From Mycoplasma suis str. Illinois (GTDB lineage Bacteria; Bacillota_I; Bacilli_A; Mycoplasmatales; Mycoplasmoidaceae): 64,000 bases of DNA. The DNA lies in the NCBI RefSeq assembly GCF_000179035.2, contig NC_015155.1, positions 310,001-374,000 of the forward strand. The letters are read 5' to 3'. The notes below the pieces were generated by a model, which was not told where the DNA came from, did not search any database, and was given only the letters and a program-made list of their open reading frames with translations. The first letter of the stretch is position 1, and every line of letters begins with the position of its first letter. Below are positions 6,131 to 56,075 of the stretch, in pieces. The translations under genes were made by a program, and so were the position numbers.

Positions 6131-7253
6131 GAATATATATGCTTATTATTCTTTTCCTACAAAAATACTTGAAAAGAATAATAAGACTGAGAAGTGAAAT
6201 GTATTCAAATATCTTTTCAATAGAAAATGACTTATTGGCTTTGGCCTAGTATTAGTTACACTAGGCCTTTTAGTATTTAATCTATCTCAACAATTCCAAA
6301 ATAGCTGAGATACTGAAGAAGTCTTAGCTCCATTTTTTGGAGTTAGGCCTAAATTTCAGGAACAATCTCAGCAATTAGAAAGTGCTGGTTCCTGAGCTGG
6401 CTACCAAAAAGTAGTTTGAATTTGCTTAGCTTCTATTCTTGCAGCTATTCTTCTGTCTTTATCAGGGAATGTTTCACAATCCCTGCTACAAAACCCACTA
6501 GCTGATTGTTCAACTTTAGGAATGATTGATGCAGCGGGATTTGGGCTTATGATTCTCAAAACAATTTTGGGAGCCTCTACAGGAAATTATTATTGAGCAT
6601 ATTTTGCTTCTGCATTCTTTTGCGCATTTCTTGTGTTCGCTCTCATATTATTTCTCTTTAATAGAGAGACTGCATGAGAGAGAACAAATACATGCACAAT
6701 GATTATTCTCTTCGGTCTTGTTCTGAATATATTCTTCAGAACATCTGTCCACTTAATAAAAGAGCATAGTGCAACTTCAGTTAATGTTGCATATGCTCTT
6801 GCAATGGGAGGTGCTGAAAACATTTATGAAATGTTTCCATCTCAATACACACTACTAAGATGAGCAATTCCTATAGTAGTTGTTTTATTTATAGTCACTC
6901 GACTATTATCCAAGAATTGAAACCTAACTGAGTTAGGTTTTGATCAAGCACATTCTCTTGGAGTGAATATAAAACTTCTGCAGTTTATTGGTTACTCAAT
7001 AATACTGTGTTGCAACACACTAACAATTAACTTAGTAGGGAATATTTCTTTCATAGGACTTATTAGTACGCATTTAGCTAGAAAGCTATATCGTACTAGA
7101 AAGTATGAAACAATAATTCCAGTATCTGCAATTATTGCAGTTACTCTAATAATGGTTGCAGTTACTGTAAATCAATTAGTTCCAGCTATTTCTAGCTCTA
7201 ACTTAATACTTGCTTTAGGAGCTCTTTCCCTTCTTCTTTTAACTAAGGAATAA
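6123..7253 (+). CDS. FecCD-family ABC transporter permease 1
   Basis: A 376-residue polytopic protein with the FecCD signature: SLSGNVSQSLLQNPLADCSTLGMIDAAGFG resembles the family G-x-x-Q-x-x-x-x-NPLA-P-x-x-LG motif near residues 115-140. The C-terminal SFIGLISTHLARKL matches the family (F)IGL-x-x-PH-x-x-R motif. These permeases import iron-siderophore, haem or cobalamin. It starts at ATG 6123 inside the end of the flavin reductase gene. It is followed 5 nt later by a second permease. Several UGA codons are read as Trp. Confidence 0.85.
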
Positions 7254-8327: not shown

Positions 8328-9164
8328 ATGAAATTCAAATTTCTTTCTATATTTGCTTCAGTATTTACTGGATTTGTCCCTTTAACTGCTTATAGTTTTG
8401 GGAAATTGAATAGTAAATTTTCAGCTTTAAAAAGTAGAGATCAGTTTTTAAATCCTTCCCCTAGTGTGAGTGGAAGAGAAAGGGTTTCTAGTAGTCAGTC
8501 TTTCGAAATGCCCGACTATAGTTCTTGATCTTTGATATTTAATTCAGGTAGTTTTTCTTTCATTAAAAAAATTCTGAATCAATTAGATATTCAAGCTCAC
8601 AATAAACAATTAAAGCCTAAAAACACCCAAACATTACCAAAAGGTCTTTTCAATACTAGCAATGAACTCTATACAGAAAGCTTTCAAAAACTTATGAAAA
8701 AGTTTTTTAAAGATTTAAGTTGAGTTCATTTAGTAACTCCTATTGAGGGAGCTGGAGAACCTCAACAACAAGCTTTAGTTCAAGCTTCTTCATCAAGTAG
8801 TTCTTCCAGCTCATCTTCAAGTTCCTCGACTGATACAGATCTTTCAACTTATTTTGAACCATTTAGGCAAAAATTTTTTGCCATAAATGATTGAATTGAA
8901 ACATCTATTATGTTTTTGGTATTGTTAACTTGTTCATCTTTGTTATTAGCTGGATGAGTAATATTTGTGGTATTAGACCCAAATATTGAGAGGTCTAAAA
9001 AAATTAGAAAAATAGGTTTTCACCTGGTAACACAGTTTCCAGGATGATTAATAGTTGATTTCTTAGAAAAGAAAGATAAATCTAAGAAATTAGAGAATCT
9101 TTTATCTTCTTTCGAGAGAAAAGAAAAAATAGAAGTAAGTGTGATATATCTACCTTTAAGTTAG
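8328..9164 (+). CDS. Hypothetical membrane/secreted protein in uptake operon
   Basis: A 278-residue protein without a recognised domain. Residues 1-25 form a signal-like hydrophobic segment; a low-complexity run of serines lies near residues 155-170; a second membrane helix (IMFLVLLTCSSLLLAGW) is near residues 200-220; the C-terminus is charged. This suggests an exported, C-terminally anchored domain joined by a Ser linker. It sits between the FecCD permeases and their ATPase, where a substrate-binding protein is normally found, so it may be a diverged ligand receptor. That is inferred from position only. Confidence 0.6.
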
Positions 9165-13641: not shown

Positions 13642-14516
13642 TTAAGGTAGAACTATTTTGTGAGCTCACTTAGGGAAAAGGTCATTGTGAGTCAATATTT
13701 GGGAAATTTGAAGACTTGAATCTAATACAAACTCTTGATTTGTGAATGTAACTTTAGAAATTATTTGCTTAATTTGCTTTTCAATTACTTTGTCAATATT
13801 AGGGATATTTGGATTTTTAGCCAATAGGCTTTCTCTTAATTTATTTTTTCTTGTTCTAGTCAGTTAGGGCAAACTTCTTCTTCGGTCAAGAACAAACAAT
13901 TAGATGCTGCATAATGCAGCACTAATTTTTTAATTTCAAAAATATTTTCTATATCAGTTTTTTCTCCTGTTTTTAGAGAAAGAATAGCTCCTAATTTGTT
14001 ATTGTGGTGAACATAAGAAAGGTTTAGGCACTTCTCTTCTGAAACAGGAGAAACTATTAATTCAGTTATCTTAATAGTTTCTTTAGTAATAGAGGAAAGG
14101 GAGGAAATTTTTTGTTCTACTGTAAGTTCATCTTTAGTTGACTGTAGTTTTAGGAATTCTTCCAAACTTAATGTTTTGTTTTCTCCTTTTTGTAGATAAT
14201 TTAGAAGAATATCAGCAATTTCAGAGGCAGTAGATTTAAAGTCAGCAGAGTTAGTTACGAAGTCTGTCTCAGCTCTCATGCAGAATAGAGCTGCAATTGA
14301 ATAATCTTCTGTATGTACTTGAAAAATCTTTCCTTCCGGAAGTTCAGAATCTCCTGAAGAAGTTGAACTAGAATGTTTAATACTTTTCTTGAAAAGTAAT
14401 CCTTTAGCTTTGTCATAGTCATACTTAGCTTCTTCTAAAGCTTTTAGGCATTCATTGAAAGGAGCCAAAGTCTCCTTTCTAAGTCTTACTAAAAACTTCT
14501 TTTTATCTCCTACCAT
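13642..14516 (-). CDS. tsf: Elongation factor Ts, requires -1 shift at A6
   Basis: Nucleotide exchange factor for EF-Tu. The N-terminal UBA-like part (VRLRKETLAPFNECLKALEE) and the core TDFV motif (RAETDFVTNSADF) are clear. The printed frame stops at 13836-13838 after about 226 residues. The homologous C-terminus (KNPNIPNIDKVIEKQI, then VTFTNQEFVLD) is in the -1 frame and ends at 13642-13644. The two join if the A6 run (complement of 13844-13849) is read as A7, giving about 291 residues, normal for EF-Ts. The protein is essential, so slippage or a sequencing error is more likely than loss. ATG 14516. Confidence 0.9.
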
Positions 14517-14551
14517 AAAAAACTACTTACTAATTAGAGTTTACTCTCTAA

Positions 14552-15135
14552 TTAAGAAGAGATTGGATCTTTTGATTCACTTTTAGTTGCTGCTGCTTTC
14601 TTGGAGAGAGGAACAAAAACACAAGAATATTGTGTTTTGTTAACTCCTTTTAGAGGTTCCATTGTCTTTCCGGCATCTTGTATTATTTCTTTAATTCTGC
14701 CGAGAAGGCTCTCAGCAATAGGAGATTTAAAGTTAGCAGTTTCAAAAGGAGTCTTAATAATTAATTGAACTCTATCTCCAGCTTCCAATCATTCTTTCAT
14801 TTTTTTAATTTTTCATTCTAAATCATGAGAGTCAATCTTCAATTTAAGGGCAATAGATTTCATCTTATTGCCCTTATTTTTTCTTTTTTAGAAGATTGAT
14901 ATTCTTGTTTCTTTTTTTCTTGTATGAAAGATTCGTAATTTACAAGCTTTACTACATGAGGACTAAGTGAACTATTAACTAGCATAAGATCTAGTCCTTT
15001 TTCCTCTGCTTTAGTAAACATCTCCTCTCAGGAGACGATACTAGAAGAGCCGTCTTCTTCTATTAATCTATATGTCTCTTCGTTAGTGTTTTCCCGTGTA
15101 AGTTGTTTTGGAAATTTTTTTCCTAGTTTCAGTAT
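14552..15135 (-). CDS. infC: Translation initiation factor IF-3, non-AUG start and -1 shift at A6
   Basis: IF-3 keeps 30S subunits free and rejects wrong start codons. The N-domain is recognisable from TRENTNEETYRLIEEDG to VKLVNYESF. The linker ends at KKEK, where the printed frame departs. The C-domain (SIALKLKIDSHDLEWKIKK, then WLEAGDRVQLIIK and CVFVPLSKK) is in the -1 frame. They join if the A6 run (complement of 14877-14882) is read as A7. No ATG, GTG or TTG precedes the N-domain; ATA 15135 (or the following CTG) is the likely start. ATG 14863 could start a free-standing C-domain of about 103 residues. Non-AUG starts on infC are a known autoregulatory feature in other bacteria. Confidence 0.88.
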
Positions 15136-15178
15136 TGAAGTAACTAAAAGATGAAGTTAAATAAAATCTTTTTTAGAA

Positions 15179-15856: not shown

Positions 15857-15902
15857 TTTTTCTTACCTTTTCTTTTATTTTAACTTAATTTTTCAAGTTT
15901 AA

Positions 15903-17176
15903 TCAATTATTATGGTGTTTTTTAGTCATTAAAACAAAGTGTATTTCTCTCTCTTCTTGGAATGGGAAACTTAATTCAAGATCTTTAAAAGTTTTTGAAC
16001 TTAAGTCAAAATAACTTAATTTTTGAATTTTTTGAACTGCCTTATGACTTATTAGAGAAGAAATTCTTTTTGTTTGTAGAATCTCTTCTTCTTTAATAAT
16101 GTCAGGACATTCAAGTGAAAATTTACTGAATTTTTCAAATTCTTCTTGCTGCATTCTTACTAGAACATGATTACTTTCTTCAGAGTTACCTCTGAAGAGT
16201 AATAAAAGAGAATATAGTGAATTAGAAATAGAAGATGGATTAGATTTTTTATCTCTCAAAACAATTCATCTAATTTTGAGAGAATAGTATAGTCTTTCAA
16301 ATTAATAAATTCTTCTACTTTTATTTCCTCTAGTGTTTTTTCAAAAAGAGGTAATAAGAGTTCATAATTCGCATTATTCACAAATTCAGAGTTAAAAATC
16401 TTTTTTCATTCTTGAAATATCGCAAACAATATTACTTGATAAGAACAAGCAGAGGGATTTGAATAAACTTCCCTCTGCATATATTCTCTAGCTAATAGAA
16501 GAGAATATCTCTGATAATTAGTTTTTTGCAAAAAAGCTAACTTTCTTTGACCATTTAATTTAAGTAGTCTAGTTCACTTAATTATTAGACTAGGATCTAT
16601 TGAGAGAGTGAAACTTCCGCAGAAGTATCTATCTCTCAATAGATAATCTAGTCTATCTACATCTATATCTGAAGAAATTAATTCTTCTATTCATTTTCTC
16701 TCACTCTTTCTAGATAAAATATTTACTATTTCTTCAGCAAAGAAGGAGTCTTCTTTGCCATGAACTCTAGATCTTTCAACTAAGAGAAGATTTAACTTAG
16801 AGTTTTTATTAAGAATTATTCTTTTTGTCATTTCTTCATGAGAGAAATTAGGGAAGAGTCACTCGAAAAAATGTGAAAAAGGACCATGCCCTAAGTCATG
16901 CAGGAGGGCACTAGCGAGAGCTAAGTCAATTTCTAATTGATCATCTTTCAGATTTAGATCTCCCAGAGAAAGAAAGTGGGAGATAAATTTAGAAGTTAAA
17001 GCATAAACACCCAGAGAATGAGAAAGTCTAGAGTGAGTAGCTCCTGGAAAGTTTTCATGCAAAAAACCTAATTGACTTATTGAAGATAGTCTTTGAAACT
17101 CCTGAGTATTTAAAAGTCCGTATAGTCAAAAGGAGTAGCCTTCAAAAATGATCTCACCATGTATGGGATCTTTTAT
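15903..17176 (-). CDS. HD-domain phosphohydrolase, AUA start and -1 shift at A6
   Basis: Metal-dependent phosphohydrolase of the dNTPase-like HD family. N-terminal DPIHGEI and TQEFQRL, then PGATHSRLSHSLGVY with the first metal His, and LLHDLGHGPFSH with the HD pair, are all conserved. Metal ligands are present. No ATG, GTG or TTG precedes these motifs after the in-frame TAA; ATA 17176 gives the usual N-terminus (Lys-Asp-Pro-Ile-His-Gly). The frame changes at A6 (complement of 16245-16250): reading A7 joins the long N-terminal frame to the C-terminal 120 residues ending at 15903. Nucleotide substrate is unknown. Confidence 0.85.
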
Positions 17177-17251
17177 GAACGGTCAACCCCCAGAAACTGG
17201 GAGTTCTAGGTGGGGTTTAGAAAAGAAAAGAATACCTAATTATCTAAGTAT

Positions 17252-18703
<1,452 letters not shown>

Positions 18704-18896
18704 AGTCTTTTAGTTAATTAATAAATAAATGATCTATTTAATTTTCTTATTTATTAATTAGCTTTAAAGACAATAAAAGACTAATTAAAAGAAAAAACCT
18801 AATAAACAATATATAGAAATATATAGATTTATTAGGTTAAAAAAGAGAAAATATTTTTTAAAAATATTTAATTGTTTTTGGTAATTAATTAACTAT
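18704..18896. repeat. Hairpin-rich spacer between gltX and hsdS1
   Basis: No gene. It contains AACCTAATAAA/TTTATTAGGTT (18796-18838, perfect 11-bp arms) and a longer AT-rich pairing of TTAATTAATAAATAA with TTATTTATTAATTAG nearer gltX. Promoters for the divergent gltX and hsdS1 must lie here, but I cannot fix a -10 or -35. Confidence 0.45.
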
Positions 18897-22099: not shown

Positions 22100-23080
22100 T
22101 TAACTATTCAATACCTTTAGTATTTCTTTGGCAATTGCGAAAATAACAGGAACAGTTACTGAATTCCCAAATTGCTTGTAAGCTTGATTATCGCTAACAG
22201 GTATTAAAAAGTTATCTGGAAATCCCTGAAGTCTTGCCGCCTCACGAGGAGTTAATTTCCTAGGATTTTTATTTTTTTGTTCTATGAGGATTTCACTACC
22301 ATCCTTATAGTATCTAGCTGAAATAGTATTTGTGTAACTACTATTTTCACTAAAAAGGGAGAAACCAAATCCTCTCCCTTTTAGTTTGTGCTCTTCTTTT
22401 CTTCTTTTATGACCTTCTCATAAAAGATCAGAGATAGTATATTTATTATTTACTTCCTTTTCTAGTATGTCTCCCACACATGTAGCTTTTAGTGTGGGAG
22501 AAGGCATACTAAAGTTTTCGTAGGATTCAACTAAATCTTTATTGAATCCTACTATGTATATTCTTTCTCGATTTTGGGGTATTCCAAAATCTCTAGATTT
22601 AAGAACTTTATAAGTTATGTGATAATTCAAATCTTTTAAATGTTGTTCAATAACTTTTAAAGTTTCTCCTTTATTGTGAGTTCTTAAATTTTTTACATTT
22701 TCCAATAAAAAAGTCTTAGGCTTTTTATCCTTTAATATTCTTATTATTTCAAAGAAAAGAGCTCCTCTCTCATCTTCAAAACCTTTCTTTTTTCCTGCCT
22801 GACTAAAAGCTTGGCAGGGAAAACCAGCTACTAGAATATCATGATTCGGAATATCTTCTGAATTTATTTCTCTGATATCCCCTAAAGGTTCATCAGAGAA
22901 ATTAGATTTGTAAGTTTTCTTAGCAAACTTGTCTATTTCACTACTAAATACTACCTTAACTTCTCCAGTTAGGTGGAATCCTAATCTTGTCCCACCTATT
23001 CCTGCGAATAGGTCAATCATCCTGTATTTAGAATTTTCATTATTGGGGAATGGAGCTTCATTCCCTTCCTTATATCCCAT
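22100..23080 (-). CDS. C5 cytosine-specific DNA methyltransferase (orphan)
   Basis: A 326-residue type II m5C methyltransferase. Motif [14 protein letters not shown] (about residues 23-35) binds SAM; motif [13 protein letters not shown] holds the catalytic Cys; ENV (motif VI), [14 protein letters not shown] (motif VIII) and the C-terminal GNSVTVPVI (motif X) are all present, so it should be active. The target recognition domain between VIII and IX gives no clear specificity. No restriction endonuclease is adjacent. ATG 23080 is followed upstream by a perfect AT-rich palindrome. It is convergent with hsdS2. Confidence 0.93.
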
Positions 23081-52471: not shown

Positions 52472-53026
52472 ATGTCACGAATAGGAAATAGAAAAATAGA
52501 AGTTCCAGCTGGAGTTAAAGTAGAAACCAATCCTAATTGTCTAATTTTTGAAAAAGATGGAAAAGTTAGAAAAATTAATTATGACAGTAAATTAGTTAAA
52601 GTGAGTTTGGATAATTCAGTTTTGTCATTTACAAGAGCTGATTCTTCAAAGTTCTCAAATATGATGCAGGGAACTTTGAATTCTCTTTCTCTTGGAGCTA
52701 TTATTGGGCTAACTAAGGGATTCCAAAAAAAATTAATTATTGAGGGTGTAGGTTATAAAGTAGTTCAAAAGGGAGAAGAAATAGTTCTTTCTCTTGGATA
52801 TTCCAAAGACATAATATTAAAAGTTCCAGCTGATGTTAAATTGGAAATTCCTTCCAATGGTAAGGAAATGACACTAAAGTCTCACAATAAGGAAGTATTG
52901 GGAGAATTTGTTGCACTTATAAAAAAGCAAAGACCAGTTGAACCTTACAAGGGAAAAGGGATTAGAATAGATGGAGAATATGTAATGAGAAAACAAGGTA
53001 AGAGTTCTGAGGGGACTAAGAAATAG
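52472..53026 (+). CDS. rplF: 50S ribosomal protein L6
   Basis: L6 of 184 residues. SRIGNRKIEVPAGVKV at the N-terminus, GFQKKLIIEGVGYKVV in the middle and PVEPYKGKGIRIDGEYVMRKQGK at the end match the family. ATG 52472, 6 nt after rpsH. Confidence 0.97.
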   Translation: MSRIGNRKIEVPAGVKVETNPNCLIFEKDGKVRKINYDSKLVKVSLDNSVLSFTRADSSKFSNMMQGTLNSLSLGAIIGLTKGFQKKLIIEGVGYKVVQKGEEIVLSLGYSKDIILKVPADVKLEIPSNGKEMTLKSHNKEVLGEFVALIKKQRPVEPYKGKGIRIDGEYVMRKQGKSSEGTKK

Positions 53027-53036
53027 TTAAAAGTTA

Positions 53037-53393
53037 ATGTCTAAGGATAGTCTTGTAGAGATAAAAAAGAGACAGCTTAGAAGAGCTAAACGTGTCTCTG
53101 CTAAATCTAAAGAAGGTAAAAGATATATTCTTAGAGTTAAGAAAACAAATCTTCACCTTTATCTTTTAGTTAGATCTCACATTACAGGTAAGATGCTTTT
53201 TTCTTGTTCAACTTTGCAATTGAGAATTAAAAAAGGTAGTGAAGAATACATTGAGAAGCTTACAGCTTCTCTAATTGAAAAGCTAAAAGAAAGAAATATA
53301 GATAAATTAAGTTTGGACAGAGGATATCATTCTTACTCAGGAACACTTCAAAAAGTAAGAGAGATACTTTTAGCTAATGAAATAAAAATATAG
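53037..53393 (+). CDS. rplR: 50S ribosomal protein L18
   Basis: L18 of 118 residues, 5S rRNA binder. RAKRVSAKSKEGKRYILRVKKTNLHLYLLV and the C-terminal KLSLDRGYHSYSGTLQKVREILLANEIKI (family F-D-R-x-G-x-x-Y-H-G-R-V) are recognisable; the usual Gly/Arg are replaced by Ser-Gly-Thr. ATG 53037. Confidence 0.92.
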   Translation: MSKDSLVEIKKRQLRRAKRVSAKSKEGKRYILRVKKTNLHLYLLVRSHITGKMLFSCSTLQLRIKKGSEEYIEKLTASLIEKLKERNIDKLSLDRGYHSYSGTLQKVREILLANEIKI

Positions 53394-54088: not shown

Positions 54089-54559
54089 ATGAAGTTACAC
54101 GAACTTCATTACTCTCCAGGTTCTAGAGGTCAGAGAAGAAAAAGAGTAGGTAGAGGTTTTGGTTCTGGTATTGGAGGTAGATCTACAAGAGGTACTAAGG
54201 GGCAAAATGCTAGAAAGTCTGGTACAGTAAGACTAGGGTTTGAAGGGGGACAAATGCCCCTATTTAGAAAAATAGGTAAATATGGTTTCAGCAATAGAGC
54301 TTTCAGGGAAAAAATCAGAACTATTCCATTAGCTAGATTTGAATTCTTTCCAGATGTAAAAGAATTCAATATGCTAACAATGCAAGAGCTTCGAATTATT
54401 AAGAGAAGAGATAGAAAAATAAAAATTATTGGAAATTCTTGTTCTCTAAAAGGTATTAAGATTTCTGCCCACTTATTCTCTAGGGGAGTAATTTCTTGAG
54501 CAGAACAAAATGGTGTTGAATTACATACTCTTGAGGATACTCAAGTATTAGATTGTTAG
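54089..54559 (+). CDS. rplO: 50S ribosomal protein L15
   Basis: L15 of 156 residues. LHELHYSPGSRGQRRKRVGRGFGSGIGGRSTRGTKGQNAR, then GFEGGQMPLFRKIGKYGF are typical. ATG 54089. The 3' end runs 8 nt into secY. A UGA-Trp in the last third. Confidence 0.96.
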
Positions 54560-56075
54560 TCATCCTCCCAATAAAAAAATTCAACTAGCTCTAGGAAAAC
54601 AAAGAGGGGCTTGAAACCCCTCTTTATTCTTCAGCAAGAATAGGGGAACTATTATTTCCCTTTCCGCTACTTTCGCTATTCTTTTCCTATTCCAAATAGG
54701 ATCACATATAACAGCTCCTCTAGTCGATTCTTCTAGAAAAAATTCTTTATCTGGGTTAGCTCAACTTTTAAACCTATTCGGAGGAGGAGGATTTAAGAGA
54801 GCAAGTATTTTCTCTGTAGGGATTTCTCCCTACATTACTGCTCAGATAATTATGCAAATACTATCTAATGACCTTATTAAGAAGCTCACGGAATTAAGGA
54901 AAGCTGGTGAGATGGGAAGAGTCAAAATAGAGCTTTACACTCGTCTCTTGACTCTTCCATTTGCAATTATTACCTCACTAGGTACTCTTTACCTCCTAAA
55001 TAATGAGGGAATTAGCTTCATTCACTTGTGAGAGCCTCCAACTAGAGATGGGACTCTTTATAAAGCTGGTCAACAAGTTGCTGAAAATCTTTCAACAACT
55101 GGTGGCAAACCATTTATTACATTTGGTCAACTGTACTTTATGCAAAAAGTACTAATGGTACTTGTATTTGTTTCAGGAACTTATATTTCCCTATTCCTTT
55201 CTGACTTAATTTCTAAGAAAGGATTGGGAAATGGTATCTCCCTTCTTATTGTTTCAGGAATTATTTCTTCAATTCCTGAAAACTTCTATTCTTCTTACCA
55301 ATATCTTTCTTCATTGGAAGGAGGAGCTCACAATGTGAAGCTATTAATAAACATATTTAAGTTCCTTATATATGTTTTCTTCTATGTAATGGTTATAGCT
55401 TTAATGGTCTTTATCACAGGATCTGTGAGAAAGATTCCTATTCAGCAAACAGGTGCTGGACTAATACTAGATAAAAAGAAGTTAGGTTATTTACCTATAA
55501 AAATAATGCCTGTGGGCATTATGCCAGTAGTGTTTGCTGGTTCTGTAATGATCTTTCCTATAGGGATTGCAGAACTAACTAAATCTTCTTCTCCAGGATT
55601 TAATGCATTTATTAGAGATTATGTTTCTTTTGGTAGTCCAACAGGACTACTAATTTATTTCCTTCTAATAGTGGTTTTTTCTTTCTTGTATTGTCAAGTA
55701 CAGTTCAATACAGAAGAAATGTGTAGATCATTTCAAAAACAAGCACAATTCATTCCTGGTGTTATGATTGGACAGGAAACTCATAACTATTTAAGAATGA
55801 TTCTTAATAAGATAAATTGGTTTGGAGCTCCCTTTTTAGGATTAGTAACAATTATGCCCAATTTATTAAATTTATGAACGGGAATTCCATCACAGATTGC
55901 TTTTGGAGGAACAGGAATATTACTTCTTGTATCAACAGCACTTAACATATATGAAGAGCTATTGTCTACACATATAATTTCCAAATATAAAGCTGAACAA
56001 GAACTAGAACTATCTACTCTGGAGAATAAGTTACATTTATCTACAAGTAGTAAATCTCCTTACTTGCTATGGTAG
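54552..56075 (+). CDS. secY: Preprotein translocase subunit SecY with AUU start
   Basis: Channel of the Sec translocase, 507 residues and about ten membrane helices. TM1 with LFQIGSHITAP, the plug region, GISPYITAQIIMQIL, GLGNGISLLIVSGI, RKIPIQ and the C-terminal half with PGFNAFI and PFLGL are typical. After the in-frame TAG 54549-54551 no ATG, GTG or TTG occurs before TM1 or the plug. ATT 54552, overlapping the rplO stop, or ATT 54579 must start it. It lies in the usual spc position, followed by adk (7-nt overlap). Several UGA-Trp codons. Confidence 0.96.

Follow-up and report, generated by a model that had tools for sequence, protein, structure and literature searches.

Non-AUG start codons and altered IF-3 fidelity residues in a genus of hemoplasmas, with an apparently split infC in Mycoplasma suis Illinois

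Results

The infC locus is printed in two frames

The window (the whole stretch of 64,000 nucleotides of M. suis strain Illinois that was analysed) carries the gene of initiation factor IF-3, infC, on its minus strand, together with two other genes, tsf and an HD-domain gene, that bear on its interpretation.

14552..15156, minus strand: infC (IF-3), which changes frame in the printed sequence but runs in one unbroken frame in six relatives
14818..15156, minus strand: frame of the IF-3 N-domain (code 4, stop to stop, 112 aa; PF05198), whose conserved portion stops at ∼14880
14552..14887, minus strand: frame of the IF-3 C-domain (111 aa; PF00707), −1 relative to the N-domain frame
14877..14882, minus strand: A6 run at the infC frame break, one base short against the frame of all relatives
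15130..15135, minus strand: candidate non-AUG infC starts ATA (15135) and CTG (15132), where relatives have ATT AAA/AAG or CTG AAA
14861..14863, minus strand: internal ATG opening the IF-3 C-domain, kept no further than M. parvum
13642..14522, minus strand: tsf (EF-Ts), broken like infC at an A6 run near 13845
15885..17239, minus strand: HD-domain gene with an A6-run break near 16245 and an apparent ATT start at 17233; no ATG, GTG or TTG for 59 codons

The genus is represented by seven hemoplasma genomes, i.e. M. suis, M. parvum (G006), M. ovis (G002), G004, which we take to be M. wenyonii, and G001, G003 and G005, whereas M. haemofelis Langford 1 (G010) and M. haemocanis (G019) serve as the outside comparison. 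On translation of the minus strand in code 4, with TGA read as Trp, Pfam profiles recover IF3_N (7e-12, 15156-14818) and IF3_C (5e-10, 14887-14552) in the expected order, PDB IF-3 chains match at 4e-24 in the profile search, and the M. suis Illinois genome holds a single copy of either domain. The two domains do not share a frame in the printed M. suis sequence, whereas each of the other six genomes (M. parvum, M. ovis and M. wenyonii included) reads through from N- to C-domain without a change of frame. An earlier note on this DNA had described just such a split, with the C-domain in the −1 frame beyond an A6 run, and profiles and frames bear it out. As another A6 run lies close by (14884-14889), the position of the break was taken from the conserved motif S-x-K-[KR]-E-K, the Glu of which is kept in G001, G002, G004 and M. 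parvum; this assigns the break to the first run, 14877-14882, in agreement with the earlier placement. Between M. suis and M. parvum the C-domain shows a dN of 0.16 and a dS of 1.1, i.e. purifying selection. A search with the C-domain for relatives among the genome contigs returned nothing.

Upstream of the N-domain in M. suis there is no ATG, GTG or TTG. The start that had been named for infC, at 15135, is an ATA that is followed by CTG at 15132, and at the conserved start position the genus has ATT AAA/AAG in three genomes and CTG AAA in three, with G005 ambiguous.

Frame breaks of the M. suis assembly fall in A/T6 runs

A survey of 304 kb of M. suis Illinois against samples of its relatives revealed five frame breaks in conserved genes (infC, tsf, the HD-domain gene and two others), each at an A/T6 run that is one base too short. 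Those of infC, tsf and the HD-domain gene all fall between 13.8 and 16.3 kb of the window, within a span of at most 2.4 kb, and two further breaks lie near 9,146 of the sampled locus L095 and near 6,228 of L096. That all five coincide with A/T6 runs is more than chance would give and points to a systematic cause. In M. parvum, where the HD-domain gene is a single frame of 451 aa, no break was found at A/T6 runs despite a larger number of such runs than in M. suis (Fisher p ∼0.004); the survey gave none in M. ovis and one possible candidate in M. wenyonii. The M. suis Illinois genome (742,431 bp, 31.1% G+C) was sequenced by 454 GS-FLX only, at 38.6-fold, with one gap closed by Sanger reads (PMC3091866), whereas that of M. 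parvum was obtained by Illumina at 1,000-fold (PMC3869333). The infC split is thus most likely a 454 homopolymer undercall by which one base was lost, a reading we hold with good confidence, and M. suis probably makes one full-length IF-3. The deletion, which is based on one assembly, could be real in strain Illinois.

Two other ways of accounting for the break were weighed. If the A6 is true in strain Illinois, full-length IF-3 might be regained during expression, either through a −1 slip of the ribosome at A AAA ATA or through slippage in transcription; all five breaks do lie at A/T6 runs and go in the −1 direction, a −1 slip on AAA yields exactly the conserved sequence and the C-domain is still under selection. 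An A6 is, however, short for known slippage, the slip site is kept in no relative, and it is not special, as intact conserved M. suis genes contain 96 copies of A AAA ATA and 67 of A AAA AAT, so that we consider this course improbable. We give still less credence to a truly split infC from which separate N- and C-domains are made with a lowered fidelity of start selection. The ATG at 14863, from which the earlier note envisaged a free C-domain, does exist and has AAGGG ∼7 bases on its 5′ side, but its Met is found only in M. suis and M. parvum and is not a conserved option; moreover, the same type of break recurs in tsf and other genes, and relatives with an intact infC have the same AUN (AUU, AUC or AUA) starts. 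With the undercall as the preferred reading, the frameshift matters only as a caution about indels in the M. suis Illinois assembly.

Breaks of other kinds were also seen. At L100 (∼15990-16130), a gene that has a relative in M. parvum loses its frame at a G8 run; phase variation and sequencing error are both possible causes. The M. parvum ortholog (L086, ∼6711-6741) of the M. suis ORF at 22103-23080 (minus strand) is broken away from any homopolymer and looks like a real pseudogene.

A share of conserved genes in the genus lacks ATG, GTG and TTG at the start

The AUA and AUU starts that had been noticed in nearby genes are borne out by the HD-domain gene (ATT 17233), gltX and secY, and the ribosomal protein genes of the window add aligned positions at which start codons differ among species.

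17252..18709, minus strand: gltX (GluRS), apparent ATT start at 18703, with only AAG ACT between the upstream stop and this ATT; the first canonical codon is codon 170
52472..53026, plus strand: uL6, ATG in M. suis; at the same aligned position ATT in G004 and TTG in G005 and G006
53037..53393, plus strand: uL18, ATG in M. suis; at the same aligned position ATT in G001, G004, G005 and G006 (ATT in four of five)
54552..56075, plus strand: secY, with ATT (54552) right after the upstream in-frame stop; the first canonical codon is codon 100

The clearest case is uS12, which starts with ATT in all seven genomes of the genus and with ATG in 18 genomes outside it, the latter being those in which the N-terminus was found by motif (no match was obtained in G011, G015 and G020, and that in G013 was a false one). 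At one aligned codon, uS7 has ATG in M. suis, ATT in G001 and G002, ATC in G003 and G004, and ATA in G005 and G006; an in-frame stop lies 1-2 codons upstream of it, and thus no ATG, GTG or TTG is able to serve as start. The relatives use an upstream ATG or GTG for gltX, the start site of which therefore shifts between species. In the S10-spc operon, ATG, GTG or TTG still opens the majority of ribosomal genes, and AUN starts are common in the genus, not universal.

In cross-genus gene pairs, a conserved N-terminus lacks ATG, GTG and TTG in 10-20% of genes in four sampled genomes of the genus versus 0-1% in M. haemofelis and M. haemocanis (17/85 versus 1/85 in one such comparison, p = 7e-5); the crude measure returns 9% even for a control pair within one genus (M. 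haemofelis-M. haemocanis), so that a fair comparison can be drawn only across genera. The segments before the first canonical codon have a pN/pS of 0.25-0.26 as compared with 0.22-0.27 in the remainder of the genes; their evolution matches that of the remainder, and they are on this ground taken to be translated. Around the N-termini there is an excess of AUU, AUA and AUC (31 of 39 tight cases versus 18.5 expected), although they are absent from some genes, and across the wider gene set the starts are not pinned to an exact codon. In the enriched-codon search, the ATA signal is modest and ATC gives none, owing to the breadth of the region scanned. Start codons called by aligned column against M. 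haemofelis were too noisy, as the N-termini are of unequal length, and the column count within the genus, also noisy, was applied only to clear cases.

The apparent N-termini could instead be untranslated, with the genes starting further in. Downstream canonical codons are available in most of them, but uS7, uS12 and gltX would lose conserved core, and the upstream segments are as constrained (pN/pS 0.25) as the rest, which makes internal starts highly unlikely. We therefore retain the upstream starts: AUU, AUC and AUA seem, as judged from sequence comparison, to be ordinary start codons in this genus, serving between about one in ten and one in five conserved genes, those of ribosomal proteins included. 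The annotated starts of M. suis (ATG 65-67%, TTG 23-25%) make it an outlier; these counts come from a gene caller that does not recognise AUU or AUA, and the published table notes that Prodigal ignores AUU, AUA and CUG (PMC4444185). No report of routine AUU, AUC or AUA starts in hemoplasmas was found in the open-access literature.

Reassignment of AUA to Met was also considered and was rejected, as a tRNA-Ile(UAU) is present. This tRNA, with anticodon TAT, lies at L056:1498-1573 (minus strand), and the only CAT tRNAs found are two, the initiator and a probable elongator Met. AUA is probably decoded without a lysidine-modified tRNA and not reassigned to Met.

IF-3 has lost fidelity residues throughout the genus

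The proposal of the earlier note that a split or reduced IF-3 causes the AUA/AUU starts does not hold: the six relatives with unbroken infC have either AUN starts or an unusually large share of genes that lack a canonical one, so that full-length IF-3 and such starts occur side by side and the split is refuted there as the cause. The wider idea that IF-3 lies behind the relaxed starts fares better, as substitutions shared by the genus offer a likely route that the split does not. Among 37 aligned genomes, Tyr75 is Tyr or Phe in the 30 outside the genus and in Escherichia coli, whereas it is Gln in M. suis and M. parvum and Arg in G001-G005. Arg133 is replaced by Glu or Asp in all seven genomes of the genus but in no other genome of the alignment; position 132 holds Phe or Tyr in the seven and Gly elsewhere, except for Ser in G011; and Arg131 is Pro in 7/7, such that R131-G132-R133 becomes P-[FY]-[ED]. 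In structural work, Tyr75 is placed at the platform of the 30S subunit ahead of tRNA accommodation, and mutants of this residue lose fidelity while retaining full 30S binding (PMC5037330). No report of Tyr75 loss in hemoplasmas was found in the open-access literature.

The IF-3 of M. haemofelis and M. haemocanis likewise carries R131P, yet retains Tyr75, Gly132 and Arg133, and these species have canonical starts although they too lack the anti-Shine-Dalgarno sequence, from which it follows that not every change matters. Relaxed start selection would thus probably have come about through the clade-wide substitutions in an intact protein. The seven genomes form one clade, and the association of IF-3 residues with AUN starts runs through one evolutionary event only.

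Initiator tRNA, uS9 and 16S rRNA

The initiator tRNA of mycoplasmas is reportedly marked by an AU/GC/GU anticodon stem, and position 131 of IF-3 and uS9 are also said to be changed. In the genus, the AU/GC/GU stem replaces three G-C pairs, as it does in most genera of the family. The initiator tRNA itself (L050:1667-1744, minus strand) has a C1 x U72 mismatch, that of E. coli being C1 x A72. The 16S tail is without CCUCC, the anti-Shine-Dalgarno sequence, in all hemoplasmas examined, M. haemofelis and M. haemocanis included; the 3′ ends (L298-L306) read GGTGGATAACTTTTT in M. suis (L305) and GGATAATCTTC in M. haemofelis. Loss of the anti-Shine-Dalgarno sequence in some Mycoplasma is already known (PMC6107228).

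Two further candidates for a cause of the AUN starts were set aside. The uS9 tail QFTKR is family-wide, and the main change in the 16S 690 loop, near the Tyr75 contact, is common to genera with canonical starts. Two additional changes in the h23 690 loop (TAGTGGTGGAATACGTAG), near the binding site of IF3 Tyr75, are common to M. suis and M. parvum.

Discussion

Taken jointly, that the infC split is a 454 error and that the genus uses AUN starts through an altered IF-3 is an explanation we regard as probable. IF-3 normally rejects 30S complexes in which the third position of the start codon is mispaired. The hemoplasma factor, with neither the platform contact of Tyr75 nor Arg133 and with Pro131 and an aromatic residue at 132, would tolerate the CAU anticodon of the initiator tRNA on AUU, AUC and AUA, and such tolerance may in turn have let these starts spread. 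Beneath this there may lie an older and wider loosening, of which the AU/GC/GU stem and the hemoplasma 16S without CCUCC would be the traces, and termination-reinitiation may help at secY and uS7, where the starts are at or near an upstream stop.

The same features could be turned into a cause of their own, by which AUN starts are permitted through the initiator tRNA, the loss of the anti-Shine-Dalgarno sequence or coupling to an upstream stop, IF-3 having no part. The AU/GC/GU stem across the family, the missing anti-Shine-Dalgarno sequence in hemoplasmas, the secY ATT directly after a stop and the uS7 start 1-2 codons past one are all in keeping with it, but M. haemofelis and M. haemocanis share the stem, are without the anti-Shine-Dalgarno sequence and still have canonical starts, and it is the IF-3 substitutions that divide the two groups. 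We consider such a cause possible, though rather unlikely, and infer that a lax IF-3 permits the AUN starts. In its broadest form, the proposal is that the genus has abandoned third-position start discrimination, with AUU, AUC and AUA as normal starts following a natural loss of IF-3 fidelity residues in cells without anti-Shine-Dalgarno, and with N-termini widely mis-annotated; on the genome comparisons made here, we lean towards this view.

If the proposal is true, nature has carried out and fixed an IF-3 fidelity experiment, which raises the question of how ribosomes with neither an anti-Shine-Dalgarno sequence nor strict start checking locate the correct start. In that case, many N-termini in these uncultivable parasites would also be misplaced by gene callers that accept only ATG, GTG and TTG.

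Several known systems compare with the present case. The 454 homopolymer undercalls of AT-rich genomes resemble the M. suis A/T6 runs that are one base short in several genes of one assembly, and the present case is a candidate instance of them. Unusual initiator tRNAs, a changed IF-3 and a non-AUG preference are already known for mycoplasmas, as given for Ayyub et al. 2018 (RNA Biol 15:70) where that work is cited in PMC10568206. In agreement with this, the genus has the AU/GC/GU stem, a residue other than Arg at IF-3 131 and a preference for non-AUG codons, whereas the loss of Tyr75 and Arg133 and the AUU, AUC and AUA starts of essential genes are found only in the genus. M. haemofelis and G020, presumably M. 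genitalium, have the initiator stem in common with the genus but keep both Tyr75 and Arg133.

For infC itself, non-canonical starts occur elsewhere, with AUU in E. coli and AUC in Streptomyces (PMC5472188). The hemoplasma infC is likewise without ATG, GTG or TTG at its conserved start, as is the E. coli gene with its AUU, where the codon serves feedback control; unlike the situation in E. coli and Streptomyces, many other hemoplasma genes share non-canonical starts, and the feature cannot therefore be a specific infC feedback. The closest parallel is provided by the E. coli infC fidelity mutants at Tyr75 and other positions, in which the same residue is lost and the same class of start codons is released as is proposed for the hemoplasmas. 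Those mutants were made in the laboratory, whereas the hemoplasma change, known here from sequence, is natural and fixed in a clade.
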